This document shows positions 20,756 through 40,188 of a stretch of 64,000 bases of DNA, piece after piece. The DNA comes from Tenacibaculum aquimarinum (GTDB lineage Bacteria; Bacteroidota; Bacteroidia; Flavobacteriales; Flavobacteriaceae). The notes beneath the pieces were generated by a model. It was not told the origin of the DNA, ran no database searches, and was given only the letters and a program-made list of their open reading frames with translations. The stretch covers positions 124,001 through 188,000 of the forward strand of contig NZ_JAKGSC010000002.1 in NCBI RefSeq assembly GCF_022478115.1, written 5' to 3'. The number at the start of each line of letters is the position of its first letter. The stretch's first letter is position 1. The position numbers and the translations under genes are program-made.

Positions 20756-22594
20756 ATGTTAGAATTAGCTGGAATAGTAATATTAGGAATAATTGCACAA
20801 TGGTTTGCTTGGAAATTTAAAATTCCAGCAATTTTGCCCTTAATTTTAATAGGTCTTTTGGTTGGACCAATAGCTGCAGAGTTTCTTAGTGAAGATGGAT
20901 CTAAATGGATAGAACCAATTTGGAATGGTAAAAAAGGGTTGTTTCCTGGAGAAAGTTTGTACTATTTTGTTTCATTAGCAATAAGTATTATTCTTTTTGA
21001 AGGAGGTTTAACGCTTAAAAGAGAAGAAATTAAAAATGTAGGACCAGTAATTACTAAATTAATTACTTTAGGATCTGCTGTAACCTTTTTTGGAGCAGGT
21101 ATTGTTGCTCATTATATTTTTGGTTTAAGTTGGGAGATTTCTTATCTTTTCTCTGGACTAATAATTGTTACAGGTCCAACAGTAATTACACCAATTTTAA
21201 GAAATATACCTTTAAAAAGAGATGTTTCTACAGTTTTAAAATGGGAAGGAATTTTAATTGACCCAATTGGAGCATTAGTTGCCGTTTTAGTTTTTGAATT
21301 TATTTCAGTTGGCGGAGGCGGAGGCTTTACCAAAACAGCCTTATTAGAATTCGGAAAAATTGTTTTATTTGGAACAACTTTCGGATTTACCTTTGCACAT
21401 GCATTGGCTTTTGCAATTAATAAAAAATTGGTACCTCATTATTTAATGAATGTTGTTTCATTATCGGCAGTTTTATCCGTTTTTGTTTTATCTGAAGCTT
21501 TTGCCCATGAATCTGGTTTATTAGCTGTTGTAGTAATGGGAATGGTTTTAGGAAATAGTAATTTAAAAAGCTTAAAAGAATTACTTTATTTTAAAGAATC
21601 TTTAAGTGTATTGTTAATTTCAATGCTATTTATTTTACTTTCTGCTAATATTGATATTCAAGATTTAATGCTGTTATATTCTTGGAATACTTTAATATTA
21701 TTTGCTATAGTAGTATTTGTAATAAGGCCAGTTGCAGTTTTTTTAAGTACACATAATTCAAATTTAAAGTTTAACGAAAAATTATTTATAAGTTGGGTTG
21801 GTCCAAGAGGTATTGTGGCTGCCGGAATTGCTTCTCTATTTGGAAGTAAACTAATAAAGCAGGGTGTTGAAGGAGCAGAGTACATAACACCTTTAGTATT
21901 TATGATAGTATTAGGAACTGTACTTTTAAACGCTACTACAGCAAGATTATTTGCTAAAATGGTTGGTGTATTCTTAAAAAGTTCTAATGCAATTTTAATT
22001 GTAGGGGCTTCTGGACCAGCAAGGTTAATTGCTAGTTACTTAAAAGATTATGGAAAAAGAGTTGTATTAATAGATTCTAATAAAAACTATATTGATAAAG
22101 CTATTAAATCTAATTTAGAAGCTTTTTCTGTAGATATATATGGAGATAATTTGGCAGATAATATAGAGTTAAATGATGTTGGGTATTTACTTTCTATGAC
22201 TGGGAGTGAAGCCGTAAATGAATATGCAATTAATAATTTTTCTAAAGATTTTGGAGAGCACGGTGCTTATAGATTAGCAACTTCAGATGAAATTCGTAGT
22301 AATTCAGAAAAAAATAAATTTAATTTTCTTACTCCAAAAGACGATTATATTAATTTGAGCGAAGCATTTAGAGGTAATCCCGAAATTTTTGAAGTTAAAA
22401 TTAATAGTGAAGAAGAATATATCACAACATTCTCTAAACTTTATAATGAGGTAAAATCTGTTCCATTATTTGTAAAAAATGGAAAGAACTTATATTTAAT
22501 TCCTGAATTTGAGAATAAAAATGAAAAGAAGGAAAATATTTCTTTGGTGTATTTAGGTAAAAATGTAAATTCTAAAGAAGAATTACATGTCTAG
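20756..22594 (+). CDS. Cation:proton antiporter (CPA1/NhaP-type) with C-terminal TrkA-N-like domain
   Basis: 612 residues. About twelve membrane segments occupy residues 1-400, beginning MLELAGIVILGIIAQWFAWKF, with the ILFEGGLTL, GPTVITPIL and SWVGPRGIVAAGIASLFGS motifs of sodium/proton exchangers. From about residue 410 a soluble domain reads ILIVGASGPARLIASYLKDYGKRVVLIDSN, a Rossmann nucleotide-binding fold like KTN/RCK domains that would gate transport. Substrate sodium or potassium cannot be decided. Its last 12 bases overlap the end of dnaX on the opposite strand, so neither gene has room for its own intergenic terminator. The 180 bases upstream carry no clear promoter box. Confidence 0.9.
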   Translation: MLELAGIVILGIIAQWFAWKFKIPAILPLILIGLLVGPIAAEFLSEDGSKWIEPIWNGKKGLFPGESLYYFVSLAISIILFEGGLTLKREEIKNVGPVITKLITLGSAVTFFGAGIVAHYIFGLSWEISYLFSGLIIVTGPTVITPILRNIPLKRDVSTVLKWEGILIDPIGALVAVLVFEFISVGGGGGFTKTALLEFGKIVLFGTTFGFTFAHALAFAINKKLVPHYLMNVVSLSAVLSVFVLSEAFAHESGLLAVVVMGMVLGNSNLKSLKELLYFKESLSVLLISMLFILLSANIDIQDLMLLYSWNTLILFAIVVFVIRPVAVFLSTHNSNLKFNEKLFISWVGPRGIVAAGIASLFGSKLIKQGVEGAEYITPLVFMIVLGTVLLNATTARLFAKMVGVFLKSSNAILIVGASGPARLIASYLKDYGKRVVLIDSNKNYIDKAIKSNLEAFSVDIYGDNLADNIELNDVGYLLSMTGSEAVNEYAINNFSKDFGEHGAYRLATSDEIRSNSEKNKFNFLTPKDDYINLSEAFRGNPEIFEVKINSEEEYITTFSKLYNEVKSVPLFVKNGKNLYLIPEFENKNEKKENISLVYLGKNVNSKEELHV

Positions 22595-24283
22595 TTGAAA
22601 CTTTATACGAAGTTCTTCTAGTAATGGATTTTTCTCCTTTAATTTATCAAACTTTTCTTGAGGAGTGTAAGCAAACTTTTTTTCAACAGTTTCACTAACA
22701 TTGAGTTCCAAGTTAATTCCGTAGTTATTAAGAGACTCTCGTAAAAATGAAACTAGTTTTGTACTACCAGATTTTAATTGATTCTTCATTAAATCATTTG
22801 GCAATAAAAAACTAATTTTAAACTCCTCTAATAATTTAGGTTCACTAGAACTCATACCATAAGCCATGTTCTTTTCACCTTGCTTAATTAGCTTTTGTTG
22901 ATATAAATTCCAACTCTTAATAAGTTCTTTTTCAGTAAAAGGAGTTCTTGGATGATTATCGTAATTCTCTTCAACAACACTTTTAGTATTGTCTACTTTT
23001 TTCTCTAAAACCGATTTTAATGAAAATGCAGAAGAACGCCTCTTGGTAGATTTAAGAACCGGAGTTTTTAATGTTGTTTTAGGTTTTTCAATAACAGTTT
23101 TTTGAACTGATACAGGTTTCTTCTCTAAAGATTTTGGTTTTGCAATTTCTTTAACAGCAGGAGATAATGCAGTAAAAAAAGTAGCAGGAATTATGTAGTT
23201 AGCTGACTTTTTTTTTTCTCCATCAAAAGTGATAGAGGCAATTTGCATAAGTGTTAACTCGACCAACAAACGTTGATTTTTACTAGCTCTATATTTTAGA
23301 TCGCAATCATTTGCTTTATCAATAGAGGTTAATAAAAACGGTAGAGTTGCTTTTGTAGCTTGTTCTAAGTACTTCTTTTTAGTATTGTCTCCAACTTCTA
23401 ACAAAGAAACAGTAGCTTTATCTTTAGCTACTAATAAATCTCTAAAATGACTTGCTAAACCGTTAATAAAATGCTGTCCATCAAAACCTTTAGATAAAAT
23501 AGTATTGAAGTTAACTAACACTTCAGGAATTTTGTTTTCCAACAACAAATCTGTTATAGAAAAATAAGCATCATAATCTAAAACATTTAAGTTTTCAGTT
23601 ACAGCTTCACGCGTTAAATTATTTCCTGAAAAACTAACAACTCTATCAAAAATTGATAAAGCATCTCGCATTGCGCCATCTGCCTTTTGAGCTATTATGT
23701 GTAACGCATCATCATCTGCAGTTATGTTCTCTTTCTCACAAATTGTTTTTAGATAATTTTTGGCATCTAAAACACCAATTCGTTTAAAATCGAATATTTG
23801 ACAACGAGATAATATGGTAGGAATTATTTTATGCTTTTCCGTAGTTGCTAAAATGAAAATGGCATGTGCTGGTGGTTCTTCTAACGTTTTTAAAAATGCG
23901 TTAAATGCAGAAGCAGAAAGCATGTGCACCTCATCAATAATATAGATTTTATATTTACCTATTTGTGGTGGAATACGAACTTGTTCAGTAAGATTTCTAA
24001 TATCATCAACAGAGTTGTTAGACGCTGCATCCAATTCAAAAATATTGAAAGCAAAATCTTCATCTTCAGAAGAAAGTGCTGCATCTTGTTGATTTATTTT
24101 CTTGGCCAAAATACGTGCACAAGAAGTTTTACCAACACCACGTGGCCCTGTAAATAATAAAGCTTGCGCTAAATGGTTGTTTTTTATAGCGTTTTCTAAC
24201 GTATTTGTTATGGCTTGTTGCCCAACTACATCCTCAAAATTTTGAGGGCGATATTTACGTGCAGATACTATAAAATGTTCCAT
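22583..24283 (-). CDS. dnaX: DNA polymerase III subunits gamma/tau
   Basis: 566 residues: clamp-loader ATPase for loading the beta sliding clamp, with tau functions in the C-terminal part. Residues 1-360 hold the AAA+ module: Walker A GPRGVGKT at 46-53, Walker B IIDEVHML, sensor LATTEKHKIIPTILSRC and the SRC arginine finger. The Cys cluster that binds zinc in the E. coli protein between Walker A and FELDAAS is absent; the segment is NQQDAALSSEDEDFAFNI. Residues about 360-440 are a low-complexity Lys/Pro/Thr/Ser linker and the rest a C-terminal domain. No A-run frameshift signal for a short gamma form was identified. It has its own promoter at 24306-24336 and overlaps the antiporter 3' end by 12 bases. 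Confidence 0.96.
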   Translation of the reverse strand: MEHFIVSARKYRPQNFEDVVGQQAITNTLENAIKNNHLAQALLFTGPRGVGKTSCARILAKKINQQDAALSSEDEDFAFNIFELDAASNNSVDDIRNLTEQVRIPPQIGKYKIYIIDEVHMLSASAFNAFLKTLEEPPAHAIFILATTEKHKIIPTILSRCQIFDFKRIGVLDAKNYLKTICEKENITADDDALHIIAQKADGAMRDALSIFDRVVSFSGNNLTREAVTENLNVLDYDAYFSITDLLLENKIPEVLVNFNTILSKGFDGQHFINGLASHFRDLLVAKDKATVSLLEVGDNTKKKYLEQATKATLPFLLTSIDKANDCDLKYRASKNQRLLVELTLMQIASITFDGEKKKSANYIIPATFFTALSPAVKEIAKPKSLEKKPVSVQKTVIEKPKTTLKTPVLKSTKRRSSAFSLKSVLEKKVDNTKSVVEENYDNHPRTPFTEKELIKSWNLYQQKLIKQGEKNMAYGMSSSEPKLLEEFKISFLLPNDLMKNQLKSGSTKLVSFLRESLNNYGINLELNVSETVEKKFAYTPQEKFDKLKEKNPLLEELRIKFQLDM

Positions 24284-24305
24284 TAATTATTATAAATTTG
24301 AATAA

Positions 24306-24336
24306 CAAAAGTAAGTATCTATCTAGCATTTTACAA
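24306..24336 (-). promoter_or_regulatory. Bacteroidota-type promoter of dnaX
   Basis: On the minus strand TTG (24334-24336), a 20-base spacer and TACTTTTG (24306-24313) fit the consensus. Transcription would begin about 16 bases upstream of the dnaX ATG. Confidence 0.7.
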
Positions 24337-24366
24337 CTATCATTCTTAACAAAATGCTAAAGTTGT
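24324..24366. promoter_or_regulatory. Interleaved inverted repeats overlapping the dnaX promoter
   Basis: TAGCATTTT (24324-24332) is complementary to AAAATGCTA (24351-24359), and ACAACT (24333-24338) to AGTTGT (24361-24366). The order A, B, A', B' is that of an H-type pseudoknot or of two interleaved operator half-sites. The first arms lie across the -33 element and spacer of the dnaX promoter. Confidence 0.45.
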
Positions 24367-24470
24367 AAACAATTGTACGAAGTCTTGTTTTGATACGACC
24401 AAATAATAGATTCTAGTTAATTTTAATAAATTAATAATTTTGAATCTTTAAAACAAAAAATATATTTAAC

Positions 24471-25118
24471 ATGAAACTTTTAAAAACTTTACTTTTTTTA
24501 ACCGCATTAACATTTACACTATTTATTTTTTCTTCGGAAGAAAAGAAGGCAGAAACCTTTGTTTTTCAATCTGAAAAAGGTACTGAAGTTGCGTATTTTG
24601 CAAGTGGATGTTTTTGGTGTGTAGAAGCAATTTTTGAAAGCGTAAGTGGGGTAGAAGAAGCCGTTTCTGGTTACGCAGGCGGACACACTAAAAATCCAAC
24701 TTATAAATCTATAGGAACTGGTAGAACAGGACATTCAGAAACAGTTGCTGTGTATTATAATCCTAAAAAAGTATCTTTTAAAACACTTGTAGATGTGTTT
24801 TACGGTTCTCACAATCCAACTACTGTAAATGGTCAATATCCAGATTTTGGAACTCAATATCGTTCTATTGCATTTTATAAAACGGAAGTAGAAAAACAAA
24901 TTATAAACGCTGCTATTTCAAAATTAAATAGAGAAAAATATAACGGTAAAATTGTTACAGAAGTTACAAAGTTTACTAAGTTTTATGAGGCTGAAGAATA
25001 TCACCAAAATTACGAGAAATTACATCCAGAGAATCCTTACATCCAAAAGATATCTATACCAAGATTAAATGCTTTTAAAAGTAAGTTTCCTCATTTATTG
25101 AAAAAAGAAATACATTAA
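24471..25118 (+). CDS. msrA: Exported peptide-methionine (S)-S-oxide reductase MsrA
   Basis: 215 residues. A hydrophobic N-terminal segment (LLKTLLFLTALTFTLFIF) suggests export to the periplasm. The catalytic motif is GCFWCVEAIF, followed by GYAGGHTKNPTY, TGHSETVAVYY and YHQNYEKLHPENPYIQ, all standard for MsrA. The Cys of GCFWC would reduce methionine-S-sulfoxide in envelope proteins. C-terminal resolving cysteines are not evident, so recycling may need an outside thiol. No msrB neighbour is seen. It is convergent with the accessory cassette region that begins at about 25150. Confidence 0.94.
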   Translation: MKLLKTLLFLTALTFTLFIFSSEEKKAETFVFQSEKGTEVAYFASGCFWCVEAIFESVSGVEEAVSGYAGGHTKNPTYKSIGTGRTGHSETVAVYYNPKKVSFKTLVDVFYGSHNPTTVNGQYPDFGTQYRSIAFYKTEVEKQIINAAISKLNREKYNGKIVTEVTKFTKFYEAEEYHQNYEKLHPENPYIQKISIPRLNAFKSKFPHLLKKEIH

Positions 25119-25152
25119 GTTTTTTAGAAAAAGAAATACTTTTATTTTCTAG

Positions 25153-25170
25153 ATGTTTGTATATGAAAAA
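25153..25170. repeat. Fragment of a cassette-spacer element at the msrA edge
   Basis: ATGTTTGTATATGAAAA matches ATGTTTGTTTATGAAAA at 25893-25909 in spacer element A at 16 of 17 positions. No second half is seen, so this appears to be a truncated or decayed element at the outer edge of the array. Confidence 0.45.
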
Positions 25171-25199
25171 TAGTACTGAAATAAACGATAATTTTGCAT

Positions 25200-25871
25200 T
25201 TATTGTTTTTTGTTCTTCAGTATTTTAATAATCTCTCTGATATTTTTTATTTCATCTTCAGTTCCATAACTTTTAAGATCTTTAAGGGTTGATTTGTATT
25301 GCTCAAGAGCATTTAAACCTTCAAAATTTTTTAGATTAACATTGGCTTTTTTAGATAGTAAATATGACAAAATCTTTGGGCTACTCGTATATGTTAAAGC
25401 ACTATATCCATTGTCACATTGTAAATTTATATTTGCTTTACTCTCAACAAGAAACTTTACCAAGTCAAATTGATTTCTATTTGCTGCCATCATCAATATT
25501 GTCATTTCTTTATAACCTCTTTGATTAATACCCATTCCTTTGTTAATCAGGGCTTTTGCTACACTTGTAAGTCCAAAATAACTAGTTTTAAAAAAAGCAT
25601 TAATATTATCGTCATCAACTTTGTTAATGTCTGCATTTTGTTCAATTAAGTAAAGTGAAATTTTTTCTTTTCCACTTTGAATAGCTTTCATTAATAGGGT
25701 TTGTTCTCTTTCTACAATACAATTAATATCCTCTCCTTTTTCAATCAATTTTTGAACCAATTCCAGATTATCATTCTCAATAGCTAATTGAACTTCTTCA
25801 CTACATTTTTTTTGAGAAAACATTTTTAAGGAGATTATAATAAATATTAAAATTAGATAGTTATTTTTCAT
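25200..25871 (-). CDS. Exported ankyrin-repeat protein
   Basis: 223 residues with a signal peptide (NYLILIFIIISLKMFSQ). About five ankyrin repeats follow: DNLELVQKLIEKGEDINCIV, QTLLMKAIQSGKEKISLYLIEQNADINKVDD, TSYFGLTSVAKALINKGMGINQRG, TILMMAANRNQFDLVKFLVESKANINLQCDNG and SYLLSKKANVNLKNFEGLNAL. Ankyrin repeats bind proteins; a partner cannot be named. It is the last gene, in minus-strand order, of the cassette-like array and is preceded by spacer element A. It converges on msrA. No neighbour suggests a pathway, so I treat it as accessory cargo. Confidence 0.8.
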   Translation of the reverse strand: MKNNYLILIFIIISLKMFSQKKCSEEVQLAIENDNLELVQKLIEKGEDINCIVEREQTLLMKAIQSGKEKISLYLIEQNADINKVDDDNINAFFKTSYFGLTSVAKALINKGMGINQRGYKEMTILMMAANRNQFDLVKFLVESKANINLQCDNGYSALTYTSSPKILSYLLSKKANVNLKNFEGLNALEQYKSTLKDLKSYGTEDEIKNIREIIKILKNKKQ

Positions 25872-25886
25872 TTGAGTACTATTAAA

Positions 25887-26021
25887 TACAACATGTTTGT
25901 TTATGAAAAGTTGCGTTTTTGTATGTGAGGATTTTACGAAGAAAAATCAGAGTTACAAAAACGCACGGACTTTTAATTAAGCACTAAATTAAGTATTATT
26001 TTTATACGTTGTTGGCTAAAG
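25887..26021 (-). repeat. Cassette spacer element A (attC-like)
   Basis: On the plus strand it runs from TACAAC (25887-25892) to GTTGGCTAAAG (26011-26021). A perfect 12-base inverted pair lies inside, TGCGTTTTTGTA (25912-25923) and TACAAAAACGCA (25954-25965), with a smaller ATTTT/AAAAT hairpin at the tip. An asymmetric, unpaired AATTAAGCACTAAATTAAG stretch lies on one side, also present in element C. Confidence 0.6.
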
Positions 26022-26100
26022 TTTTTCTGTTTGAATTTTAAAATGAATCAATTTTTAAAATCTTTTTAGATTTGGTATTTTATTAAGTATACATTTATTA

Positions 26101-26532
26101 TTATCTAAAGTACTTAATAAAATGAGCAATATCTTCAGAGTTTTTTAAACCTTGATTTTCAGGAAAATCAATAATTTCACTAGCAGCACCATAATTAATA
26201 TTTACATCAATTATTTGATAGTAAAAATGAGAGTTTATATCATTATTTCTAATTCGATTGATAACCTCAGTTAGTTCATCATCTGTAATATTTGTCTTTT
26301 TAGGTGGTATTTGAGCAATATCTCTAGCTAAATCTTCTATTTTTTCATATTTTCTAAAGTTTTGAAAATACTCTTTGTTATAGTCTCTGTAACTAAATTC
26401 ATTTAGTTTATCAATTAATTTACTTACTTTATTGGTATTGTTTAAATGAGTTTCAATCTCTTTAATTTTAGAGAGAACTTTACTAATTCTTTCTTCAGAA
26501 GCATTTGGAAGTAATTCATCTCTTAATTTCAT
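26101..26532 (-). CDS. Hypothetical protein, cassette cargo
   Basis: I do not recognise this protein. From the ATG at 26532 it has 143 residues; an ATG at 26619 would add 29 residues but that stretch runs into spacer element B, so I prefer the shorter form. It is charged and soluble with no signal peptide: a helical N-terminal half (SEERISKVLSKIKEIETHLNN, VSKLIDKLNEF) and a C-terminal part with DDELTEVINRIRNNDINSHFYYQIIDVNINYGAASEII and ENQGLKNSEDIAHFIKYF. It fills a cassette of about 600 bases alone, between elements A and B, on the same strand as the other cargo genes. Small orphan proteins in such arrays are often immunity or toxin-like, but nothing here shows that. Confidence 0.6.
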   Translation of the reverse strand: MKLRDELLPNASEERISKVLSKIKEIETHLNNTNKVSKLIDKLNEFSYRDYNKEYFQNFRKYEKIEDLARDIAQIPPKKTNITDDELTEVINRIRNNDINSHFYYQIIDVNINYGAASEIIDFPENQGLKNSEDIAHFIKYFR

Positions 26533-26597
26533 TTTATTATCGAGTTTTATCAAATATTTGCAATCCTTCTTGAGTGTGTTTGTTTCGTGTTTATGCA

Positions 26598-26691
26598 CTA
26601 AAGTTAGCAAATAAATCACAGATAGAAAGTCCGCGAGGACTTTCGTAAATAGGCAAAAACTAGCAATTAATTTTATACGGTGTTAGGCACA
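26598..26691 (-). repeat. Cassette spacer element B (attC-like)
   Basis: It carries a perfect 8-base hairpin, GAAAGTCC GCGA GGACTTTC (26625-26644), then TTATACGGTGTTAGGCACA. The right core GTTAGGC (26682-26688) fits the integron GTTRRRY consensus. The left end, CTAAAGTTAGCAAA, is a degenerate relative of the complement of the GTTGGCTAAAG core of element A. Confidence 0.6.
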
Positions 26692-26700
26692 GTTTTTATG

Positions 26701-28131
26701 TCAATATTTTCTTCTATCTTTCCATTTATACTTTTCCTTATTTGACAAATTCCATTTTTCCAAATTTGAAAGCATTTTCTCAATTTGTTCTTTATCGAGC
26801 CAAGTTCCGTTAACAAAAACTCCATTAATAGTTCTTGTGTTTTTAATGTCTTCAAGTGGATTTGCATCTAACAAAATTAGGTCTGCATATTTGTTTATTT
26901 CTATAGTTCCGATATTGTTTTCGATTTCTAACCATTCAGCAGGTAATCGTGTTGCTGAAAATAAAGCTTCTTCATTTGTTAGACCTGCATCGACTAATAA
27001 TTCTAGTTCGTCGTGAAGTGAGAAACCTGTTACTATGCCAGAAACTCCTGCATCGGTTCCTGCTACCATTGGTACTCCTGCTTCTTTAAATGCTACAACC
27101 ATTCCTTTATGAAATGTAATTAAGCTATCTAAATAATCAATAAATTCTGAACTTGAATGTTTATTGTAATTGTTCGATGTTAACCATTTATCTTGTAAAA
27201 GTGGATGTACATACTTTAATGTCTCCATTAGTCGAATTGAATCGAGCGATTGAACTTGGTCTCTTATCTTGACGATAGCTATTAAATTAGGGATTAGCCA
27301 CGTATCATTTTCTTTTGATAATTGAGCGAAATATTGAGCATCTTTTTTTGTCTTGGTCTGATTTCTTATTTGTTTAGAAAATTCCTCTGCGTGAGCAACT
27401 AAACCAAAATTTGGTACAAAAGCTTTTTCTGTTTGACCTTTAAACGCATCTGGAATATGTCCAACAACCTTGAGCCCTTGTTTTTTTGATTCGTCGATAA
27501 TGGTTTCGAAAGATTCAATATTCAACTTAGAGTAGACTTTGACAAAGTTGTAACCTTCAGCTTTTATACTTCGGACTACCTGTCTTGCATCTGAAGCTGT
27601 ATTTACAATTCTTCCACTATTATTTGGGTTTCCACCATTTATCAATGCTGCTATTGCCATTCTTGGACCAATAACTTTTCCTTTTGCAATCTCATTCCTT
27701 TGCCCAAAGTGTTCAACTCTACCTTCAAGTTCAAATATAGTAGTGACACCATTAGCTATATATGTTGTCATAACATCTTGTGTGTCCATAAAAAATGTAG
27801 CTCCTTGAGTTGGTGCGTTTTCTCTGAAATTTAAATCTGCATTTGTGTGAACGTGCATATCAACGAGACCAGGAATTAACCATTTTCCAGTTCCGTCTAT
27901 AATTTTTGCATTATTAGGAATAGTTTCATTGATAGACAGGATTTTTTTATTTTTTATTACTACTGTTGCATTTTCAATGAGATTATTTTCAATTGTCATT
28001 GGAATTATATTCACATTCTTGATTACAAAAAGAGATTGTTCTTTTGGTTTGTTTTCAGTTGAATTTGAACATCCGTAAAAAGTAAAGGCAAATAATAAAA
28101 TGACAAAGTTCAAATGTTTAAAATAGTTCAT
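26701..28131 (-). CDS. Amidohydrolase-family lipoprotein, cassette cargo
   Basis: 476 residues from the ATG at 28131; an ATG at 28161 adds ten residues ahead of a good signal peptide and is less likely. The signal peptide ends in a lipobox (FTFYGC). The metal-dependent amidohydrolase fold is clear: PGLVDMHVH supplies two histidine ligands, VVGHIP and VAHAEE further histidines, and AGTDAG the catalytic aspartate; a C-terminal beta part has GTIEINKYADLILLDANPLEDI. Relatives include imidazolonepropionase-like and prolidase-like enzymes, so the substrate is uncertain. It fills one cassette bounded by GTTAGGCACA (26682-26691) and its exact complement TGTGCCTAAC (28211-28220). Confidence 0.88.
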   Translation of the reverse strand: MNYFKHLNFVILLFAFTFYGCSNSTENKPKEQSLFVIKNVNIIPMTIENNLIENATVVIKNKKILSINETIPNNAKIIDGTGKWLIPGLVDMHVHTNADLNFRENAPTQGATFFMDTQDVMTTYIANGVTTIFELEGRVEHFGQRNEIAKGKVIGPRMAIAALINGGNPNNSGRIVNTASDARQVVRSIKAEGYNFVKVYSKLNIESFETIIDESKKQGLKVVGHIPDAFKGQTEKAFVPNFGLVAHAEEFSKQIRNQTKTKKDAQYFAQLSKENDTWLIPNLIAIVKIRDQVQSLDSIRLMETLKYVHPLLQDKWLTSNNYNKHSSSEFIDYLDSLITFHKGMVVAFKEAGVPMVAGTDAGVSGIVTGFSLHDELELLVDAGLTNEEALFSATRLPAEWLEIENNIGTIEINKYADLILLDANPLEDIKNTRTINGVFVNGTWLDKEQIEKMLSNLEKWNLSNKEKYKWKDRRKY

Positions 28132-28210
28132 TAAGTGTTTTTTATTTAAAAGACTAATCAATATGCTAATTGTTACAGTTTTCTTTAGTAGTTACACCGT
28201 TTTTTTAAAT

Positions 28211-28350
28211 TGTGCCTAACGTGTTTTTGTATGGAAAGTTGCGTTTTAAGTTGACGGCTATTTTCCGCAGGAAAATAGGAGTTGACAGAAATGCAACAAC
28301 CTTTAATTAAGTACTAATTTAGCAATTTTTTATACAAGGTGTTGGCATTA
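28211..28350 (-). repeat. Cassette spacer element C (attC-like)
   Basis: The best preserved element, 140 bases. Left core TGTGCCTAAC (28211-28220, RYYYAAC as GCCTAAC); right core GTTGGCATTA (28341-28350). GTTGCGTTT pairs with AAATGCAAC except at one base, and a perfect tip hairpin is TATTTTCC GCA GGAAAATA (28259-28277). An unpaired asymmetric stretch, TTAATTAAGTACTAATTTAG, lies on the right side. Confidence 0.7.
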
Positions 28351-28353
28351 GTT

Positions 28354-28875
28354 TTAATTCAGAATGTTTAATGTTTCATTTATAAATTTGATAAATTCGA
28401 ATTCAACTTTCCATTTTTTGTTATGGTAAATTCCTTCAGTAATTATTTTCGGATTTTTATAATTAGAAAATTCAGAATCATTATATTTATTTTTCCCATT
28501 TTCCAATGGATGAGTATCTGTTTCTTCAAAATCAATTGAATAATATTCGGCGTGAATAATTTTGTTACAAGATTCTCTATAGTTAAGGTTTTTAATTTCC
28601 TTATTTTCATATTTTATTTTTCCAACTAAACCATAATTTTCTGCATTTAAACTATGCATATCTAAAATAGCTCTAATTAGTCCAGCTAATTCTATTAATT
28701 CTTTGAAGAAAGTTTTTTGAAAAGAGTCTTTAAAGTCAGTTCCAAACTTACACCAATATTCATTGTATGGATGAACCATTTTTTGGAAGTCATATTCAGC
28801 TAATAAAAATGCGCTTAATTTCCAACATTTCTCGCTTATTAATTCTCCAGTTTGTTCAACTTGTAATTTTTCCAT
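28354..28875 (-). CDS. Hypothetical protein, cassette cargo, weak HEPN-like motif
   Basis: 173 residues, soluble, no signal peptide, and not a family I can name. The N-terminal half is helical and aromatic (KCWKLSAFLLAEYDFQKMVHPYNEYWCKFG, FFKELIELAGLIRAILDMHSLNAENYG). RESCNKIIHAEYY has an Arg and a His separated by seven residues, close to but outside the Rx4-6H rule of HEPN nucleases. The C-terminal part is beta-rich (IITEGIYHNKKWKVEFEFIKFINETL). It follows the 82-residue membrane protein gene on the minus strand after 9 bases, and the two share one cassette. A HEPN-like role is only a suggestion. Confidence 0.65.
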   Translation of the reverse strand: MEKLQVEQTGELISEKCWKLSAFLLAEYDFQKMVHPYNEYWCKFGTDFKDSFQKTFFKELIELAGLIRAILDMHSLNAENYGLVGKIKYENKEIKNLNYRESCNKIIHAEYYSIDFEETDTHPLENGKNKYNDSEFSNYKNPKIITEGIYHNKKWKVEFEFIKFINETLNILN

Positions 28876-28884
28876 TTTAAATTT

Positions 28885-29133
28885 TTACTTTCTTTCATTA
28901 ATTTTTTTTTCAAAATATGGTTTTGCCAAATTTCGAAGTATTATATAAATTATGATAAAAGCGACCACAATTAAAGTTCCACTTAAACTCGTTTTTTCTT
29001 CGGGTATTCTGCCTAAAAAATAAAGTAAAGTTCTTATTCCAACAAATATTGACGCTATAATCAAAACACCATAAAAGAAGTTGATAGTTTTCCACAAGTA
29101 TTCAAATATTATTTCTTTTTCGTCTTTTTCCAA
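28885..29133 (-). CDS. Small two-helix membrane protein, cassette cargo
   Basis: 82 residues with two membrane segments (INFFYGVLIIASIFVGIRTLLYFLG and LSGTLIVVAFIIIYIILRNLA), an acidic N-terminus MEKDEKEIIFEYLW and a basic end FEKKINERK. No family is recognised. It is the first gene of a two-gene cassette; the 173-residue gene begins 9 bases after its stop. A pair of soluble and small membrane proteins in one cassette hints at a linked function, but this is inference. Confidence 0.6.
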   Translation of the reverse strand: MEKDEKEIIFEYLWKTINFFYGVLIIASIFVGIRTLLYFLGRIPEEKTSLSGTLIVVAFIIIYIILRNLAKPYFEKKINERK

Positions 29134-29147
29134 TGTTAGTTTTTAAT

Positions 29148-29201
29148 TAATGCCAACGTATTATATAGTAAGTTTTATAGTCGTTATCCCATAATGATAA
29201 C
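29148..29201 (-). repeat. Half cassette spacer element D at the acyl-CoA ligase edge
   Basis: TAATGCCAAC (29148-29157) is the exact complement of the GTTGGCATTA core at 28341-28350, closing the two-gene cassette. A short hairpin, GTTATC and GATAAC (29183-29201), follows. No matching distal core is seen before the acyl-CoA ligase terminator, so this looks like half an element. Confidence 0.55.
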
Positions 29202-29257
29202 TTTTAAAGAATGTGTTTTGTTTAATTACAAATTTAGAAATAGGCTAAAATATTGGA

Positions 29258-29286
29258 ATAGAAAACTCGTAACTTTCGTTACGAGT
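29258..29286 (-). terminator. Rho-independent terminator of the first acyl-CoA ligase
   Basis: ACTCGTAAC (29265-29273) pairs perfectly with GTTACGAGT (29278-29286) around a TTTC loop; on the minus strand the stem is followed by TTTTCTATT. It separates the core gene from the cassette array. Confidence 0.85.
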
Positions 29287-29293
29287 CTGTATT

Positions 29294-31075
29294 TTATCCT
29301 CTATAAATTTCTTCGTACAAATCGTTATAAATCTTTTTAATAACTGTACGTTTCATTTTCATTGTTGGTGTAAGATGTCCAGCTTCTAATGTCCACTCGT
29401 CTGGTGTTAATTTAAAAACTTTAATCTGTTCCCATTTACCAAAACAGCTATTACATAATTTAACAGCTTTAGTAAACTCTTCTACTACTTTTTCGTTTGC
29501 AATTAAGTCTTTATTAGAAGTGTAGCTAATATTATTTTCTTTAGCCCATTCTTTTAAATACTCAAAATTTGGTTGAATTAATGCTGCTGGCATTTTTTCT
29601 CCTTCTCCAACAACCATAACTTGTTCAACAAACATAGATTGTTTTAATTCTCCTTCTAATAAAGGTGGTACAACATATTTTCCTCCAGAAGTTTTAAACA
29701 TTTCTTTAGTTCTTCCGGTAATCTTTAAAAAGCCATCTGCATCAATTTCTCCTTTATCTCCTGAGTGAAAGTAGCCGTCTTTAATAACTTCAGCAGTTTT
29801 TTCTGGATCTTTGTAATAGCCTTGCATTACATTTGGTCCTTTTATTAAAATCTCTCCATTCTCTGCAATTTTAACTTCAACACCTTCAATAACTTTACCT
29901 ACGGTTCCAACTCTAAAGCCTTTTTTGCCTCCATATTCAATAAAATTTACAGACGTTACAGGAGAGGTTTCGGTTAATCCATAACCTTCCATTATAGGCA
30001 TTCCTGCGGCTGCAAAAATACGTGTTAAACGAGGTTGTAATGCAGCGCTACCAGAAACCATTAATTTTAATTTTCCGCCCAAAGCGTCTTGCCATTTAGA
30101 AAATATAAGTTTGCGTGCTAAACCTAATTGTTTTTCATACCACCAACCGTTTTGTCCGTATGGCTCATAACGTAATCCTAAGTTTACTGCCCAGAAAAAT
30201 AATTTCTTTTTTATTCCTGTTAAGTCTTCACCTTTTAAGATTATTTTGTCGTATATCTTTTCATATAAACGCGGTACAGCCGTCATAACATCGGGCTTAA
30301 TTTCTTGTGCATTTTCGGTTAATTTATCAATTCCTTCAGCAAAATAAATTTCTGCTCCACAAAATTGATATAAATACAGAATCATTCTTTCAAATACATG
30401 ACAAACTGGTAAAAAGCTTAAAGCTTTGTCTTTACCGTATTCTAATGGAACTGGATCGTCACTGGCTAACACGTTGGAAACAATATTTCCGTGAGATAAC
30501 ATAACTCCTTTTGGTCTTCCTGTTGTACCAGAGGTATAAATTAAAGTAGCTAAATCGTTTGGTGTTACTTCATTTTTTCTAGCTTCAACTTCTTCTTGAT
30601 TACTAGTGTCTTTACCAAGTTCTAAAACTTCATTCCAGTTTTTTTCTCCAGCAATGTCATCAAAAGTAAAAATTTCTTTTAAGCTTGTATTTCCTTTAAT
30701 TTGATTCAGTTTTTCAAGTATTGTTGAATCAGAAACAAAGCAATAAGTTGCTTCAGAATGATTTAAAACATACTCGTAATCTTCTTTAGAAATTGTAGGG
30801 TAAATTGGTACATTTTGCGCTCCAACTTGTAATATACCTATATCGCAAATGTTCCACTCAGTTCTGTTAGTAGAAGAAATTACAGCAATTTTATCGTTAG
30901 GTTTTATTCCTAATTTTAATAATCCTCTACTAATTGCATTAGCTTGGTCTACATATTCCTGTGATGAAGTAGAAATCCATTTACCATTGTATTTTGTTGT
31001 TAATGCTTTATCTAGATTGTATTTTTCTAGTTGATAATAAGGAAAATCAAAAATGCGTGTAATTTCTATTGCCAT
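29294..31075 (-). CDS. Long-chain fatty acid--CoA ligase, paralogue 1
   Basis: 593 residues of the ANL adenylating superfamily: P-loop YTSGTTGRPKGVMLSHGN, the GYGLTETSPVTS A5 motif, HSGDKGEIDADGFLKITGR (A7-A8), and a C-terminal lysine region HLTPTMKMKRTVIKK. It would activate long-chain fatty acids to acyl-CoA via an acyl-adenylate in the cytoplasm, at the entry to beta-oxidation or lipid recycling. A close paralogue lies 75 bases upstream on the same strand, with the same length, motifs and C-terminus (LTPTMKMKR), which points to tandem duplication. The gene ends in a strong terminator. Substrate chain length cannot be read from the sequence. Confidence 0.92.
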   Translation of the reverse strand: MAIEITRIFDFPYYQLEKYNLDKALTTKYNGKWISTSSQEYVDQANAISRGLLKLGIKPNDKIAVISSTNRTEWNICDIGILQVGAQNVPIYPTISKEDYEYVLNHSEATYCFVSDSTILEKLNQIKGNTSLKEIFTFDDIAGEKNWNEVLELGKDTSNQEEVEARKNEVTPNDLATLIYTSGTTGRPKGVMLSHGNIVSNVLASDDPVPLEYGKDKALSFLPVCHVFERMILYLYQFCGAEIYFAEGIDKLTENAQEIKPDVMTAVPRLYEKIYDKIILKGEDLTGIKKKLFFWAVNLGLRYEPYGQNGWWYEKQLGLARKLIFSKWQDALGGKLKLMVSGSAALQPRLTRIFAAAGMPIMEGYGLTETSPVTSVNFIEYGGKKGFRVGTVGKVIEGVEVKIAENGEILIKGPNVMQGYYKDPEKTAEVIKDGYFHSGDKGEIDADGFLKITGRTKEMFKTSGGKYVVPPLLEGELKQSMFVEQVMVVGEGEKMPAALIQPNFEYLKEWAKENNISYTSNKDLIANEKVVEEFTKAVKLCNSCFGKWEQIKVFKLTPDEWTLEAGHLTPTMKMKRTVIKKIYNDLYEEIYRG

Positions 31076-31150
31076 AAATTTCTGTTTTGAAGAACTGCAA
31101 AGTAGTAAAATTACATTGATTTAACAAATAGAAAATTTATAGGTTTAAAA

Positions 31151-32914
31151 TTAAGAATTATATATTTTTTGATATAGTTTTTTGTATTTTTCTTTAATTA
31201 CCTTTCTTTTCATTTTCATAGTAGGAGTGAGGCATTCATTTTCTATAGTCCATTGTTCTGGAGTAATTTCGAAACGTTTTATTTGTTCCCATTTTCCAAA
31301 CTTTTTATTGTAAAAATCTACTTCTTCTTGTATTCTTTCTATTATTTTTTTATCAGAAGTAATGTCTATAATTTTATGATTGTGTCTTTTAGCCCAATCT
31401 GCAATAAATTCAAACTGAACTTGTATTAATGCTGCTGGCATTTTTTCTCCTTCACCAATAACCATAATTTGTTCTATAAATCGAGATTGTTTAAACTCGC
31501 TTTCTAATGCTGCAGGAGCAATATATTTTCCTCCAGAGGTTTTAAATATTTCTTTTTTACGGTCTGTTATTGTTAAAAAACCTTCGTTGTCTAATACGCC
31601 AATATCTCCAGTGTGTAAATAACCGTTAATTATTGTTCTATTTGTTAACGCTTCATTTTTATAGTAGCCTAACATTACGTTTTCTCCTTTCATTAAAATT
31701 TCACCGTCTTCAGCAATTTTAATTTCTACACCTTCTAATGGTTTACCTACAGATCCAATTTTTAGATTATTGTTTCTTAGGTCATTTACTGTTCCTCCTG
31801 GTGAAGACTCTGTCATTCCGTAACCTTCAAAAACAGGAATTCCTGCAGCTGTAAATACTCTAATTAATCTTTGTTGTAAAGGAGCACTTCCAGATACCAT
31901 GAACTCTAAGTTGTTTCCTAAAGCTTCTCTCCATTTAGAAAAAATAATTTTATTAGCTATTTTAAGTTTAAAATGATACCAATTTCCGTTTTTGTAATAG
32001 GGTTCATATTTTTCAGCAAGTGCTAAAGCCCAAAAGAATAATTGCTTTTTTAAGCCTTTTAAATTACTTCCTTTATCTACAATTTTATCAAATATTTTTT
32101 CTAATAATCTTGGAACAACTGCTAAAAAATGAGGTTTTATTTCTCTGATATTGTCTCCAATTTTTTCTAAACTTTCTGCAAAATAAACTTCAAACCCTTT
32201 GTATAAATTATAATATGAAGCGGTACGTTCATAAATATGACAAATAGGTAAGTAGCTTAAAACACGTTTTTTAGAAGAATTTAAGTTAAATGCTTTTGCA
32301 GTTTTAAAAACAGTAAAAACAATATTATTATGACTAAGCATTACGCCTTTAGGAGTTCCTGTTGTTCCAGAAGTGTAAATAATTGTAGCTAAATCGTTTG
32401 GTTTTACATTGTCTTTTAATATTTCTATTTCAGATGTATAATCTTTAGTGGTTCCAATTTCTAAGAAGTTAGTAAAACTGTGGTCCATTTCTAATTCTTC
32501 TAAAGAGAAAATACCTTTAAGTTGTGTTTTGCTTTCTATGGATTTTACTTTGTTATATAAATCGTTGTTGGAAACAAAACAATATTGTGCGTCAGAATGA
32601 TTTAAGATGTATTCGTAATCCTTTTCGGAAAGTGTTGCATATAAAGGAACATTTTGCGCTCCGATTTGTAAGATACCAACATCTAAAATATGCCAATTAG
32701 GATTATTATGTTCTGTAATTACAGCTATTTTATCGTTTGGTTTTACTCCTAATTTTAATAAAGAACTACTTACTTTATTTGCAGAGTGAATTAATTCTTC
32801 AGTAGAAATAGATTTCCATTCGTTATTAACTTTGTAGTTGTAGCATTTTTCTTGAGGGCAATTTCTTAGTTGATTATAAGCAAAATCGAAAATACGTGTT
32901 ATAGTTTTAGACAT
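31151..32914 (-). CDS. Long-chain fatty acid--CoA ligase, paralogue 2
   Basis: 587 residues with the same architecture as the neighbour: YTSGTTGTPKGVMLSHNN P-loop, EGYGMTESSPGGTVN, LHTGDIGVLDNEGFLTITDRKKE, and a C-terminal ECLTPTMKMKRKVIK. Both belong to the group of bacterial AMP-binding ligases near 590 residues. It is expressed ahead of paralogue 1 on the minus strand. Upstream lies a leader with a stem-loop and a terminator-like hairpin just before the ATG at 32914, so expression may depend on read-through. Divergence of the two paralogues suggests separate substrates or conditions. Confidence 0.92.
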   Translation of the reverse strand: MSKTITRIFDFAYNQLRNCPQEKCYNYKVNNEWKSISTEELIHSANKVSSSLLKLGVKPNDKIAVITEHNNPNWHILDVGILQIGAQNVPLYATLSEKDYEYILNHSDAQYCFVSNNDLYNKVKSIESKTQLKGIFSLEELEMDHSFTNFLEIGTTKDYTSEIEILKDNVKPNDLATIIYTSGTTGTPKGVMLSHNNIVFTVFKTAKAFNLNSSKKRVLSYLPICHIYERTASYYNLYKGFEVYFAESLEKIGDNIREIKPHFLAVVPRLLEKIFDKIVDKGSNLKGLKKQLFFWALALAEKYEPYYKNGNWYHFKLKIANKIIFSKWREALGNNLEFMVSGSAPLQQRLIRVFTAAGIPVFEGYGMTESSPGGTVNDLRNNNLKIGSVGKPLEGVEIKIAEDGEILMKGENVMLGYYKNEALTNRTIINGYLHTGDIGVLDNEGFLTITDRKKEIFKTSGGKYIAPAALESEFKQSRFIEQIMVIGEGEKMPAALIQVQFEFIADWAKRHNHKIIDITSDKKIIERIQEEVDFYNKKFGKWEQIKRFEITPEQWTIENECLTPTMKMKRKVIKEKYKKLYQKIYNS

Positions 32915-32942
32915 AAAAGGAGTTTATGATGCTAAAGCTAAT

Positions 32943-33016
32943 AAAAAAAATCGGTTTCTGTAAAAACAGTAACCGATTTAAGAATTCATAAATTAGCCCC
33001 CTAACTCTAATTTATG
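32943..33016 (-). ncRNA. Candidate attenuator leader or small RNA upstream of the acyl-CoA ligase genes
   Basis: On the minus strand a perfect 11-base stem-loop (33006-33016 with 32986-32996; TCATAAATTAG and CTAATTTATGA arms) is followed by a 14-base stem with one mismatch (32966-32979 with 32948-32961) and eight T residues, which is a standard intrinsic terminator. A TATATTTG box at 33020-33027 would start a transcript here. The transcript would be a free RNA of about 70 nt or a leader that stops before the ATG at 32914 unless anti-terminated. The second hairpin could instead be the terminator of the aminotransferase operon. Confidence 0.5.
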
Positions 33017-33019
33017 AAA

Positions 33020-33027
33020 CAAATATA
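33020..33027 (-). promoter_or_regulatory. -7 promoter box for the leader RNA and acyl-CoA ligase genes
   Basis: TATATTTG on the minus strand matches TAnnTTTG and lies just before the first stem-loop. No TTG is seen at 19-21 bases upstream, so confidence is limited. Confidence 0.4.
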
Positions 33028-33154
33028 ATTATATTTTTCTTATTTTGTGGTGTGTTTTAATAATATTTAAAGAATTACTTTAGTGTTATGTTAAATTTTT
33101 AGTTTATATAACCATTTTTAAACAGTTGATTTACAGGTTTTAATATTCAATCCG

Positions 33155-34348
33155 CTATAACTTGTTAGTCAAGTTTTTTTGATTAATGATATTAATTAAT
33201 ATCGTACATCCTTCTATTAATTCTTTATCAGAAACATTTAAAGGAGGTGTGATTCTAATTGCATTTTTCTCAAAAAGGAGCCAAAATAATATCAATCCTT
33301 TATCTAAACAATCTAGAATTACTTCAGATGTAATTTCTGGAGTTTCTAAAATTAAAGCTAACATTAAACCTTTTCCTCTTATTTCTTTTATTGAAGGATG
33401 CTTTAAATGTTTTCTAATTAATTCTTCTTTCCTTATAGTTTCATTTATTAATGAAGAAGTAACTATTTCATTTACTGTAGCTAAACCTGCGGCAGCAATT
33501 ACAGGATGACCACCAAAGGTTGTTATATGACCTAGTTTGGGATTATCTTTTAGAATATCCATTATTTCTATTGATGAAATAAAAGCGCCAATTGGCATTC
33601 CGCCACCTAAACCTTTACCAGCAATAATAATATCTGGTATTACATTGTAATTTTCAAATCCCCAAAATTTACCTGTACGTCCAATTCCAGTTTGTATTTC
33701 ATCTAAAATTAATAAAGCACCCACTTCTGTGCAGCGTTGTTTTATTTTCTGTAAATAATTATCTTTGGGTTCAATAAAACCTGCGCCACCTTGAATTGTT
33801 TCTAATATTACTGCTGCAGTTTTGGTTGTTATTTTTTTAATATCAAGAACATTGTTAAATTCAATAAACTTAACACCTGGAATTAATGGCCTAAAAGCAC
33901 TGTTTTGTTCCTCAGCACCACAAACACTCATTGCACCTTGTGTATTACCGTGATATGCGTTCTTTGCAGAGATTATTTCGCTACGTTCCGTAAATCTTTT
34001 AGCTAATTTTAAAGCGCCTTCTGTAGCTTCTGTACCTGAATTTGTTAAATATATAGATTGTAGGTTTTTAGGTAATGTTTTTGCTAGGGCTTTACAAAGT
34101 TGTAATTGTGGTTGCTGAATAAATTCTCCATAAACCATTACATGATCGTAAGTTTCTAATTGCTCTTTTACAGCATTAACAACTTTAGGATGACTGTGCC
34201 CTAAACTGTTTGCGGAAACTCCAGCAACAAAATCTAAATACTTTTTACCTTTCGAGTCATAAATATAACTTCCTTTTGCCTTTGAAATTTCTAAAGCAAG
34301 TGGGTGAGGAGTAGTTTGTGCTTGATATTTGTAAAAGTCTGATTTCAT
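33155..34348 (-). CDS. Class III PLP-dependent aminotransferase
   Basis: 397 residues, ArgD/GabT-like. Features: SNSLGHSHPKVV, the YLTNSGTEATEGALKLAKR phosphate-binding loop, LILDEIQTGIGRTGKF with the PLP-contacting aspartate, and the PLP lysine in IIAGKGLGGGMPIGAF. The fold transfers an amino group, commonly from acetylornithine, ornithine or another omega-amine to 2-oxoglutarate; the substrate here cannot be fixed. Its ATG overlaps the stop of the OstA-like gene by one base (TAATG), so the two are translationally coupled. I see no arginine biosynthesis genes next to it, which argues against assuming ArgD. Confidence 0.88.
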   Translation of the reverse strand: MKSDFYKYQAQTTPHPLALEISKAKGSYIYDSKGKKYLDFVAGVSANSLGHSHPKVVNAVKEQLETYDHVMVYGEFIQQPQLQLCKALAKTLPKNLQSIYLTNSGTEATEGALKLAKRFTERSEIISAKNAYHGNTQGAMSVCGAEEQNSAFRPLIPGVKFIEFNNVLDIKKITTKTAAVILETIQGGAGFIEPKDNYLQKIKQRCTEVGALLILDEIQTGIGRTGKFWGFENYNVIPDIIIAGKGLGGGMPIGAFISSIEIMDILKDNPKLGHITTFGGHPVIAAAGLATVNEIVTSSLINETIRKEELIRKHLKHPSIKEIRGKGLMLALILETPEITSEVILDCLDKGLILFWLLFEKNAIRITPPLNVSDKELIEGCTILINIINQKNLTNKL

Positions 34349-37971: not shown

Positions 37972-40188
37972 TTATAGCGAGTTAATTCTTTCGACTTTTT
38001 GAACTCCTTCTATTTTTTTGATACTTTCAATTAATTTTGTTAATTGATTTTTGTTTTTTACGCTTAGAGATAATTTTCCATCAAAAACACCATCATCTCC
38101 AGAGATATTTATACTGTGTATAAAAACACTCATGTTATTAGAGATTACTTTGGTAAGATTGTTAACTATACCTTTGTTGTCTACACCAGATAAATTTAAA
38201 ACTGCTTTAAATTCTTGTTTTGTAGAATCAATCCATTTTGCAGGCATAATTCTATACGCATAATTAGATTGTAAAGAAATGGCGTTTGGGCAATTGTTCT
38301 TATGTACTTTAATACCTTCATTAATAGTTACAAAACCAAAAACTTTATCTCCTGGAATTGGGTTGCAGCATTTAGATAGTTTAAAGTCTAGTTTTTCTTC
38401 ATCTTTACCAAAAACCAATGCATCATACTTACTTGTAACTTCTTCTTTGTCAGTTATTTCTTTGGGCTGTGGTCTTTTAAAGCTATTTTTTATAAAGCTC
38501 ATTATTGCGCCGCTACGCTGGTTGGCATATGCTTTTAATTGTTTATTGTCAATAGCGCCATTTCCTATTCTGTAAAATAAATCGAAACTAGTTTTAAGGT
38601 TAAAATAATTAACCATTTCATTTACAGCTTTGTCGTCAAAGTTAATTTTTAAATGACGTAGTTTTCTTGAAAGAACAGCTTTTCCTTCTTCTGCAATAAT
38701 TTTTTCTTCTTCTTTAAGTGCTGTTTTTATTTTTGTTCTAGCACGAGCCGTAATAACAAAATCTAACCATCTTGCTTTTGGTTTATTTGTAGATGTGGTT
38801 AGTACTTCTATTTGATCTCCACTTGTAAGTGTATGACTTAGTGGAACTAATTTTCCGTTAACTTTAACACCTCTTGTTTTTAAACCAACGTCTGTATGCA
38901 CTGAAAAAGCAAAATCTAACGCTGAAGCTCCTTTTGGTAGCGATTTTAAATCTCCATTTGGAGTAAATACATATATTTCTTTTGAATATAAATTCAATTT
39001 AAAATCTTCAACAAAATCTACCGCATCTAAGCTTTGGTTTTCTAAAGTTTCTTTTAGTTTATTTAACCAAGATTCTAAACCGCTTTCGTTTTCATTACCT
39101 TGTTTGTATTTAAAATGTGCTGCATATCCTTTTTCAGCAATTTCATTCATTCTATTAGAACGAATTTGAACTTCTACCCATTGTGCATTTGGTCCAACTA
39201 CAGTAATATGTAATGCTTCGTAACCTGTAGATTTGGGTTGAGAAATCCAATCTCTTAATCGAGTAGGGTTGGGTTTAAAATAATCTGTAACAATTGAATA
39301 TATTTTCCAAGCATCAAATTTTTCATCTTTAGAGGTTGGTTCAAAAATTATTCTAATAGCAAACTTATCATAGACTTCATCAAAAGAAACATTTTGCTTT
39401 CGCATTTTTCTTCTAATTGAAAAAATAGATTTAAACCTACCTTTTATTTCATAGGTGAAGTTTTCTTTATCTAAACCAGATTTTAGTTTGTCTGAAAAAG
39501 ATTTTATGTATAAATCTTGCTCTTCTTTACTTTCTTTAATTTTACTTAAAATATCGTTGTAAACTTCTGGTTCAGTATATTTTAATCCAAGATCTTCTAA
39601 CTCTGTTTTTATATTATATAAACCTAAACGATGGGCTAGTGGAGCGTAAATATATAATGTTTCTGATGCAATTTTAAGTTGTTTGTACGCTGGCATTGCA
39701 TCCATTGTTTGCATATTATGCAATCTATCTGCAATTTTTATTAAAATTACACGAACATCATCATTTAAAGTTAAGAGCATTTTTCGAAAATTCTCTGCTT
39801 GTATAGAGTAATCTTGATCTTTCTTTAAACGAGAAATTTTTGTTAATCCGCTTACAATACGAGCAATTGTTTCTCCAAACAACTGTTCCATATCTTCAAT
39901 TGTGTAATGTGTGTCTTCTACAACATCGTGTAATAGGGCAGCGGCAATAGAGGTTGCTCCTAAGCCAATTTCGTTGGCAACAATTTTTGCAACAGCAATT
40001 GGATGATATATATAAGGTTCGCCAGTTTTTCTTCTTTGTTCAGAATGGGCTTCTACAGCAATATCAAAAGCTTTACGGATTAGTATTTTATCTTCTTTTG
40101 ATAAAACTTCATACGTTCCTTTTAGCAAATCTTTATATCTATTTGCTATCTCCTTATTTTCCTCCTCTATAGTTGCTGTGTATGCCAT
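37972..40188 (-). CDS. Bifunctional (p)ppGpp synthetase/hydrolase, RelA/SpoT family
   Basis: 738 residues. The N-terminal HD hydrolase domain has YIYHPIAVAKIVANEIGLG and the HDVVEDT metal motif; the synthetase domain has FAIRIIFEPT, RLRDWISQPKSTGYEALHITVVGP and VEVQIRSNRMNEIAEKGYAAHFKYK. A TGS domain follows (IYVFTPNGDLKSLPKGASALDFAFSVHTDVG), then a zinc-finger-like CCNPIPGDKVFGF and an ACT domain at the end. It makes and degrades ppGpp in response to starvation. The presence of HDxxED argues that the hydrolase is active. It is the first gene of its strand block, just upstream of the Fur gene. Confidence 0.95.
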   Translation of the reverse strand: MAYTATIEEENKEIANRYKDLLKGTYEVLSKEDKILIRKAFDIAVEAHSEQRRKTGEPYIYHPIAVAKIVANEIGLGATSIAAALLHDVVEDTHYTIEDMEQLFGETIARIVSGLTKISRLKKDQDYSIQAENFRKMLLTLNDDVRVILIKIADRLHNMQTMDAMPAYKQLKIASETLYIYAPLAHRLGLYNIKTELEDLGLKYTEPEVYNDILSKIKESKEEQDLYIKSFSDKLKSGLDKENFTYEIKGRFKSIFSIRRKMRKQNVSFDEVYDKFAIRIIFEPTSKDEKFDAWKIYSIVTDYFKPNPTRLRDWISQPKSTGYEALHITVVGPNAQWVEVQIRSNRMNEIAEKGYAAHFKYKQGNENESGLESWLNKLKETLENQSLDAVDFVEDFKLNLYSKEIYVFTPNGDLKSLPKGASALDFAFSVHTDVGLKTRGVKVNGKLVPLSHTLTSGDQIEVLTTSTNKPKARWLDFVITARARTKIKTALKEEEKIIAEEGKAVLSRKLRHLKINFDDKAVNEMVNYFNLKTSFDLFYRIGNGAIDNKQLKAYANQRSGAIMSFIKNSFKRPQPKEITDKEEVTSKYDALVFGKDEEKLDFKLSKCCNPIPGDKVFGFVTINEGIKVHKNNCPNAISLQSNYAYRIMPAKWIDSTKQEFKAVLNLSGVDNKGIVNNLTKVISNNMSVFIHSINISGDDGVFDGKLSLSVKNKNQLTKLIESIKKIEGVQKVERINSL

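Follow-up and report, generated by a model that had tools for sequence, protein, structure and literature searches.

Integron-like gene cassettes with complementary ends in Tenacibaculum aquimarinum and a linked XerA-like recombinase

An inverted pair at the edges of attC-like sites

Within a 64,000-nucleotide stretch of the Tenacibaculum aquimarinum genome (Flavobacteriaceae; assembly GCF_022478115.1, contig NZ_JAKGSC010000002.1, positions 124,001 to 188,000), hereafter the window, an amidohydrolase gene lies between two short sequences that are complementary across about 1.5 kb. Do they mark the ends of a mobile gene cassette, and if so, what would move it? A sequence-only reading of the window had pointed out the pair as exact complements, and so it is: GTTAGGCACA (26682-26691) is the reverse complement of TGTGCCTAAC (28211-28220). 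The next cassette (28341-29157) has a different pair of its own, GTTGGCATTA / TAATGCCAAC, again as claimed. The 10-nt pair itself is not new, since pairing of 9 to 11 nt between the ends has already been described for classical integron cassettes (PMC2727003). By itself it also proves nothing, because such pairs are common in this AT-rich window: we counted 814 exact 10-nt inverted pairs 200 to 2500 nt apart, no more than in five Markov simulations (733 to 883). The pair is meaningful because each half forms the outer edge of an attC-like site of ~125 bp. A covariance model of this site, R1, was built from 41 curated copies, and the array in the window reads as follows.

25890..26013, minus strand: attC-like site 1, body from AAC to GTT (model R1, 89.4 bits; a row of the site alignment; gene sense minus)
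26011..26563, minus strand: cassette 1, with an ORF at 26101-26619 (GTG start), which shortens to 26532 if the first in-frame ATG is the start; far end degenerate
26563..26684, minus strand: attC-like site 2 (model R1, 75.8 bits); outer GTT end damaged
26682..26696, minus strand: 3' end, in gene sense, of the amidohydrolase cassette; the plus strand reads GTTAGGCACA-G-TTTT
26682..28220, minus strand: cassette 2, the amidohydrolase cassette, ORF 26701-28161 (PF01979)
28206..28220, minus strand: 5' end, in gene sense, of the amidohydrolase cassette; the reverse complement reads GTTAGGCACA-A-TTTA
28218..28343, minus strand: attC-like site 3 (model R1, 107.9 bits), assigned to cassette 3, the gene of which lies before it in the sense direction
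28341..29157, minus strand: cassette 3, with ORF 28354-28875 plus a short second ORF that reaches about 29140 (by eye); its ends are GTTGGCATTA / TAATGCCAAC
29158..29190, minus strand: host side of the insertion, in sense ending in TATATAATAC directly before GTT; weakly resembles, by eye, the attI-like motif described below

Site 3 was assigned to cassette 3 because in two duplicated units of this genome the body moves with the preceding gene, as in integrons. No protein family was found above cut-off for the ORF of cassette 1, none was assigned to ORF 28354-28875 of cassette 3, and Rfam at gathering thresholds gave no match in 22000-34000 of the window. In a search of 29 congeners for an empty insertion site of the window array, no attC-like site was found in the retrieved loci of the ligase that adjoins the array, and by eye their intergenic DNA gave no alignment. 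An ankyrin-repeat ORF (window 25200-25871) adjoins the array. At site 1 its upstream edge has the sequence GTTGTATTTAA, so that the ORF may once have been a cassette and have lost its site.

Pairing across units and the strand that folds

Model R1 has 57 matches in the genome at E≤1, of which 23 lie at C10:76-100 kb, 6 at C5:1.008-1.012 Mb, and 3 in the window, with the rest scattered. Read in gene sense, a unit starts with GTT-N7, continues through the gene to N7-AAC, and is followed by the attC-like body of ~125 nt and then by the next GTT; the body typically starts ACCGTATA and finishes TATACAAACAC (typical letters). The sequence-only reading had proposed comparing the end pairs across many cassettes of the genome. 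We compared the ends cassette by cassette in 26 intervals from three arrays: 156 of 182 positions match (positions 4 to 10), against at most 103 in 20,000 permutations. All seven positions match in 14 of the 26 same-unit comparisons and in 2 of 650 comparisons between different units, and the two ends of one site never match fully (0/29). Two independent sets of units from other genomes gave at least six of seven matches in 104 of 117 and 76 of 86 units; the first set was reduced from 119 units by excluding those whose sites are more than 2.5 kb apart and those that lack GTT at one or both ends. The permutation result refutes the idea that the amidohydrolase pair is a chance inverted pair in AT-rich DNA. 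The abundance of such pairs in the window is what that idea has in its favor; against it stand the position of the pair at two site edges, the independent unit sets, and a homologous cassette in another genus described below, and we give it practically no weight.

Fewer than six of seven matches were found in 4/26 units of this genome and in 13/117 and 10/86 units of the two other sets. Of the four failing intervals here (1 to 4 of 7), three are on C10, two of them longer than 3 kb and the other 1.5 kb long; the fourth is the window's first unit, which has a degenerate far end. Among them, one has a damaged site edge and another a low-scoring site inside; no inner site was found in the failing interval C10:77271-81000.

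Just inside the matched positions, position 11 pairs in none of the 26 units of this genome and in 7/117 and 4/86 units of the other genomes, and positions 12 to 14 pair again at 0.77 to 0.88 (26 intervals). In the 117 units, which come from other genera, position 11 has A on its 5' side in 116 cases and, after complementing, G on its 3' side in 100, giving the A/G combination in 100/117; it is present in 73 of the 86 named units. This makes A.C on the gene strand and T.G on the bottom strand, and therefore a wobble that, as a rule, only the bottom strand can use. As a canonical control we took 50 IntI-adjacent cassettes of the phylum (from 5 of 20 loci, with one spurious unit of locus L251 dropped), in which position 11 pairs at 0.76 and positions 12 to 15 at 0.30 to 0.40, about background; only positions 11 to 15 allow an unbiased comparison, because these chains had been picked for at least six of seven matches at positions 4 to 10. 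The present units thus differ from classical cassettes in a near-constant mispair at position 11 and about three more pairs. The integron R-box pattern GTTRRRY / RYYYAAC does not describe them, with GTTRRRY at the 5' end of 10 of 211 units, and it is a poor divider because it holds for only 7 of the 50 canonical cassettes at one end and for 9 at the other.

The outer helix of the body is conserved with compensatory changes. In the alignment, 95.6% of its cells are paired, and 67 are double-change cells, compared with 25.3 after shuffling and 9 to 28 when the helix is slid. Folding as single-stranded DNA was computed for sites of 118 to 140 nt. With a unit's own ends joined, the bottom strand is more stable than the top in 172 of 174 sites (mean, −4.05 kcal/mol), and the joined form of the bottom strand is more stable than the form found in the array in 157 of 174. 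The longest ORF runs in the sense direction in 163 of 175 units. These are arrays of cassettes that each end in a foldable attC-like site and run in one direction, as in integrons. The array statistics, the covariation of the body, and the folding of joined ends support the proposal of the sequence-only reading that the two ends are paired, as in integrons, because they are adjacent in an excised circle; the identical cassette in two places with unit-exact edges and the linked recombinase with its attI-like motif, both described below, also fit this proposal.

Copies of the amidohydrolase cassette with mismatching ends, which the earlier reading had named as counterevidence, were sought among homologues at E≤1e-80, which occur in 14 of 298 other genomes. 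One of them, from a different genus and 60% identical, is part of a cassette that also has the GTTAGGCACA / GTTAGGCACA pair, beside a weak site (32 bits). Another, 59% identical, retains 9/10 of the pair, with position 11 paired and no site detected. The other 12 of the 14 have no clear cassette ends.

A recombinase beside the sites

The array on C5 adjoins a gene for a 389-aa tyrosine recombinase (C5:1015409-1016578), which is transcribed toward the array. The window array and the C10 array, the largest of the genome, do not adjoin it. From the 72 recombinase-bearing genomes of the family, 20 recombinase neighborhoods in other genera were chosen, with long contigs favored; 18 of them hold sites, and all 153 counted sites lie downstream and on the recombinase strand (a 154th match, the partial L122 1-72 on the same strand, was excluded). 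No site was found in neighborhood L131. Likewise, 38 of the best 80 of 575 named recombinase loci hold sites, with 137 of 137 downstream and on the recombinase strand and none upstream; in these 80 loci, 37 contigs end less than 1.5 kb past the gene, and of the 43 that are longer, 32 have a site and 11 do not.

The motif TATAACNN followed directly by GTT often stands just past the stop codon of the recombinase gene, and at many loci the first unit starts at the GTT of this motif. TATAACNNGTT occurs within 350 nt after the recombinase in 38 of the 57 loci that have at least one site and in none of 1216 upstream windows, and in T. aquimarinum it lies 36 nt after the last codon. Judged by sequence, this motif is a putative attI beside the recombinase, as in integrons. 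Four GCGTTGGC direct repeats (L047:3240-3326, the same as C5:1015239-1015325) had been considered as attI and were dropped, because the cross-genus comparison put attI nearer to the recombinase; the repeats sit between attI and the next gene. In the stretch that separates attI from the first strong site in the C5 array, a 1025-aa protein is encoded (C5:1012117-1015194) that by eye looks like a restriction-modification enzyme.

The best sequence and fold match of the recombinase is archaeal XerA, and the nearest named recombinases, among the best 80 of 575, are those of Polaribacter (71 to 74%). The distance between KDR and HxxRH is 57 to 59 in 96 recombinases of the present family, 99 to 100 in 22 IntI, and 60 to 66 in 4 Xer/XerA; by this measure the present enzyme lacks the ~40-residue insertion of IntI. 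It scores 206.9 bits against the integrase_gron profile, whose cut-off is 265, and no match above that cut-off was found in this genome. In the family alignment, the residues at the positions expected to be catalytic are invariant or nearly so, and we take them to have the corresponding roles. In a tree made by a quick method with SH-aLRT support only, all 22 IntI group together (support 100), as do 54 of the present recombinases (92); with the Xer rows on long branches, the latter clade is weakly placed as the sister of IntI (87). About residues 1 to 90 (L090-L119) are an additional N-terminal part, predicted to fold into strands and helices, for which no Pfam match was found. This part and the linkage to cassette arrays set the family apart from archaeal XerA. 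The XerA-like sequence and fold are also what could be said for Xer/dif modules (pdif) or a repeat family of the REP/RAYT type. pdif sites are fixed duplex sites of ~28 bp, in contrast to the covarying hairpins of ~125 nt with unit-specific ends found here, and we regard this explanation as very improbable.

Movement, distribution and relation to known integrons

Two identical copies of a 593-bp unit were found, one within the C10 array and one standing by itself at C9:68 kb, and the identity starts and stops at the unit edges; a second duplicated unit is also present. Single units were further found in a dispersed repeat with 19 matches at E≤0.02, whose core is an attC-like palindrome of ~60 bp (TTTCGCTAAC...GTTAGCGAAG). 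At least five single units sit inside this repeat; without a unit, its ends CTTCGCTAAC/GTTAGCGAAA and its attC-like inner helix would make up the ~60-bp palindrome, and such uninterrupted (empty) copies exist. Other units and the window array lie at sites that by eye resemble the attI motif.

C7:248557, C6:471890, C9:67854, C7:262317, C5:459622 and others (L283-L301): copies of the dispersed repeat

In our view, the amidohydrolase unit is very probably a mobile gene cassette that belongs to an integron-like system whose recombinase is not IntI. That this recombinase acts in cassette movement is suggested by its linkage to the sites. In a circular cassette, where the two ends are adjacent, their complementarity would close the base of the hairpin, and the T.G wobble would favor folding of the bottom strand over the top and thereby help to fix the orientation. 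The recombinase would then cut the folded bottom strand at G^TT, as IntI does, and join the cassette to attI. In this genome, single units and short arrays, including that in the window, also lie away from the recombinase, at sites resembling attI or inside the ~60-bp palindrome.

The arrays could instead be immobile remnants, kept by hairpin terminators or by selection on their genes. The degenerate far end of cassette 1 and the many genomes with sites in which no recombinase was detected are in line with this. Against it stand the unit that is 100% identical at two places and whose identity ends exactly at its edges, the second duplicated unit, and the intact end pairs of most units, and we consider immobility improbable. 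Among 149 sampled genomes of the family, sites (E≤1e-5, with the top 23 candidates scored per genome) occur in 125 and the recombinase (E≤1e-60) in 72, with both in 68. Sites are thus found in 68/72 genomes with the recombinase versus 57/77 without it (Fisher p = 0.0007). Since these 57 genomes still hold sites, other enzymes may act on them, or arrays may outlive the recombinase gene. In the phylum sample, 34 of 296 genomes have sites at E≤1e-6.

A further explanation is that a classical IntI, acquired now and then or acting in trans, moves the cassettes and that the nearby recombinase is incidental. Canonical IntI is present above cut-off in 105 of 395 phylum genomes. Some of the 106 genomes with a strong match also hold sites of the present type, and at E≤0.01 such sites were found close to canonical IntI genes at 2 of 20 loci. 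Moreover, IntI1 is reported to recombine an attC of the Polaribacter phage P12002L, attC2, through the bottom strand, with no recombinants from the top strand (PMC9892861), and this phage carries R1-type sites. Weighing against this, nothing in the T. aquimarinum genome exceeds the integrase_gron cut-off, the 106 phylum genomes that match IntI strongly include no member of the Flavobacteriaceae, and the sites are strictly linked to the other recombinase. An IntI mover is, in our judgment, about as improbable as immobile arrays. The sites near canonical IntI (L242:14149-14272, which is G212:C116:36148-36271, and L240:2841-2962 and 5382-5504) hint at an exchange of cassettes between two platforms; in genome G212 the layout is the classical divergent one.

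The mobile cassettes proposed here share with integrons the GTT/AAC core, the cassette-specific complementary ends of about 10 nt, the palindromic site after the gene, the single gene direction, the attI-like site beside a tyrosine recombinase, and the better folding of the bottom strand. They differ in the position-11 mispair with its additional pairs, in the separate clade of a recombinase that lacks the IntI insertion, and in its transcription toward the array. In Treponema integrons, too, the integrase gene points toward attI and runs the same way as the cassettes, but these genes are classed as intI (PMC3607928). The window array, with attC-like sites and no recombinase alongside, resembles CALIN elements, i.e., attC clusters without an integrase (PMC9024848), but on C5 this genome does have a non-IntI recombinase linked to an array.

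We recognized no paper on such arrays in Flavobacteriaceae among the titles and abstract openings listed by an open library that excludes preprints. For Bacteroidetes, the text of the IntegronFinder 2.0 survey mentions In0 elements from an earlier study and one complete integron, that of Salinibacter ruber (PMC9024848). On balance, but with clearly less confidence than for the cassette itself, we favor the view that Bacteroidota have a second, IntI-independent integron lineage. It would combine an XerA-like recombinase lacking the IntI insertion with unit-specific stems of ~14 bp, in which a near-invariant bottom-strand wobble sets strand choice; it would dock cassettes both at the attI beside it and at an attC-like palindrome scattered over the chromosome, and cassettes may be exchanged with IntI integrons. 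If this is true, a large bacterial group has a cassette reservoir that such surveys miss. That the recombinase lacks the IntI insertion, which has been called essential for integron function (PMC8138268), speaks against the reading; if the reading is right, the recombinase would test whether this insertion is needed at all, and the position-11 wobble would be a built-in sequence test of how strand choice is set.

In phage P12002L, sites of the present type lie at L252:39123-39244, 14503-14624, and 38036-38089. Its attC2 was not matched to any particular one of them, as the passages of PMC9892861 that concern it give no coordinates. The third site lies between genes annotated as DNA modification and methyltransferase.
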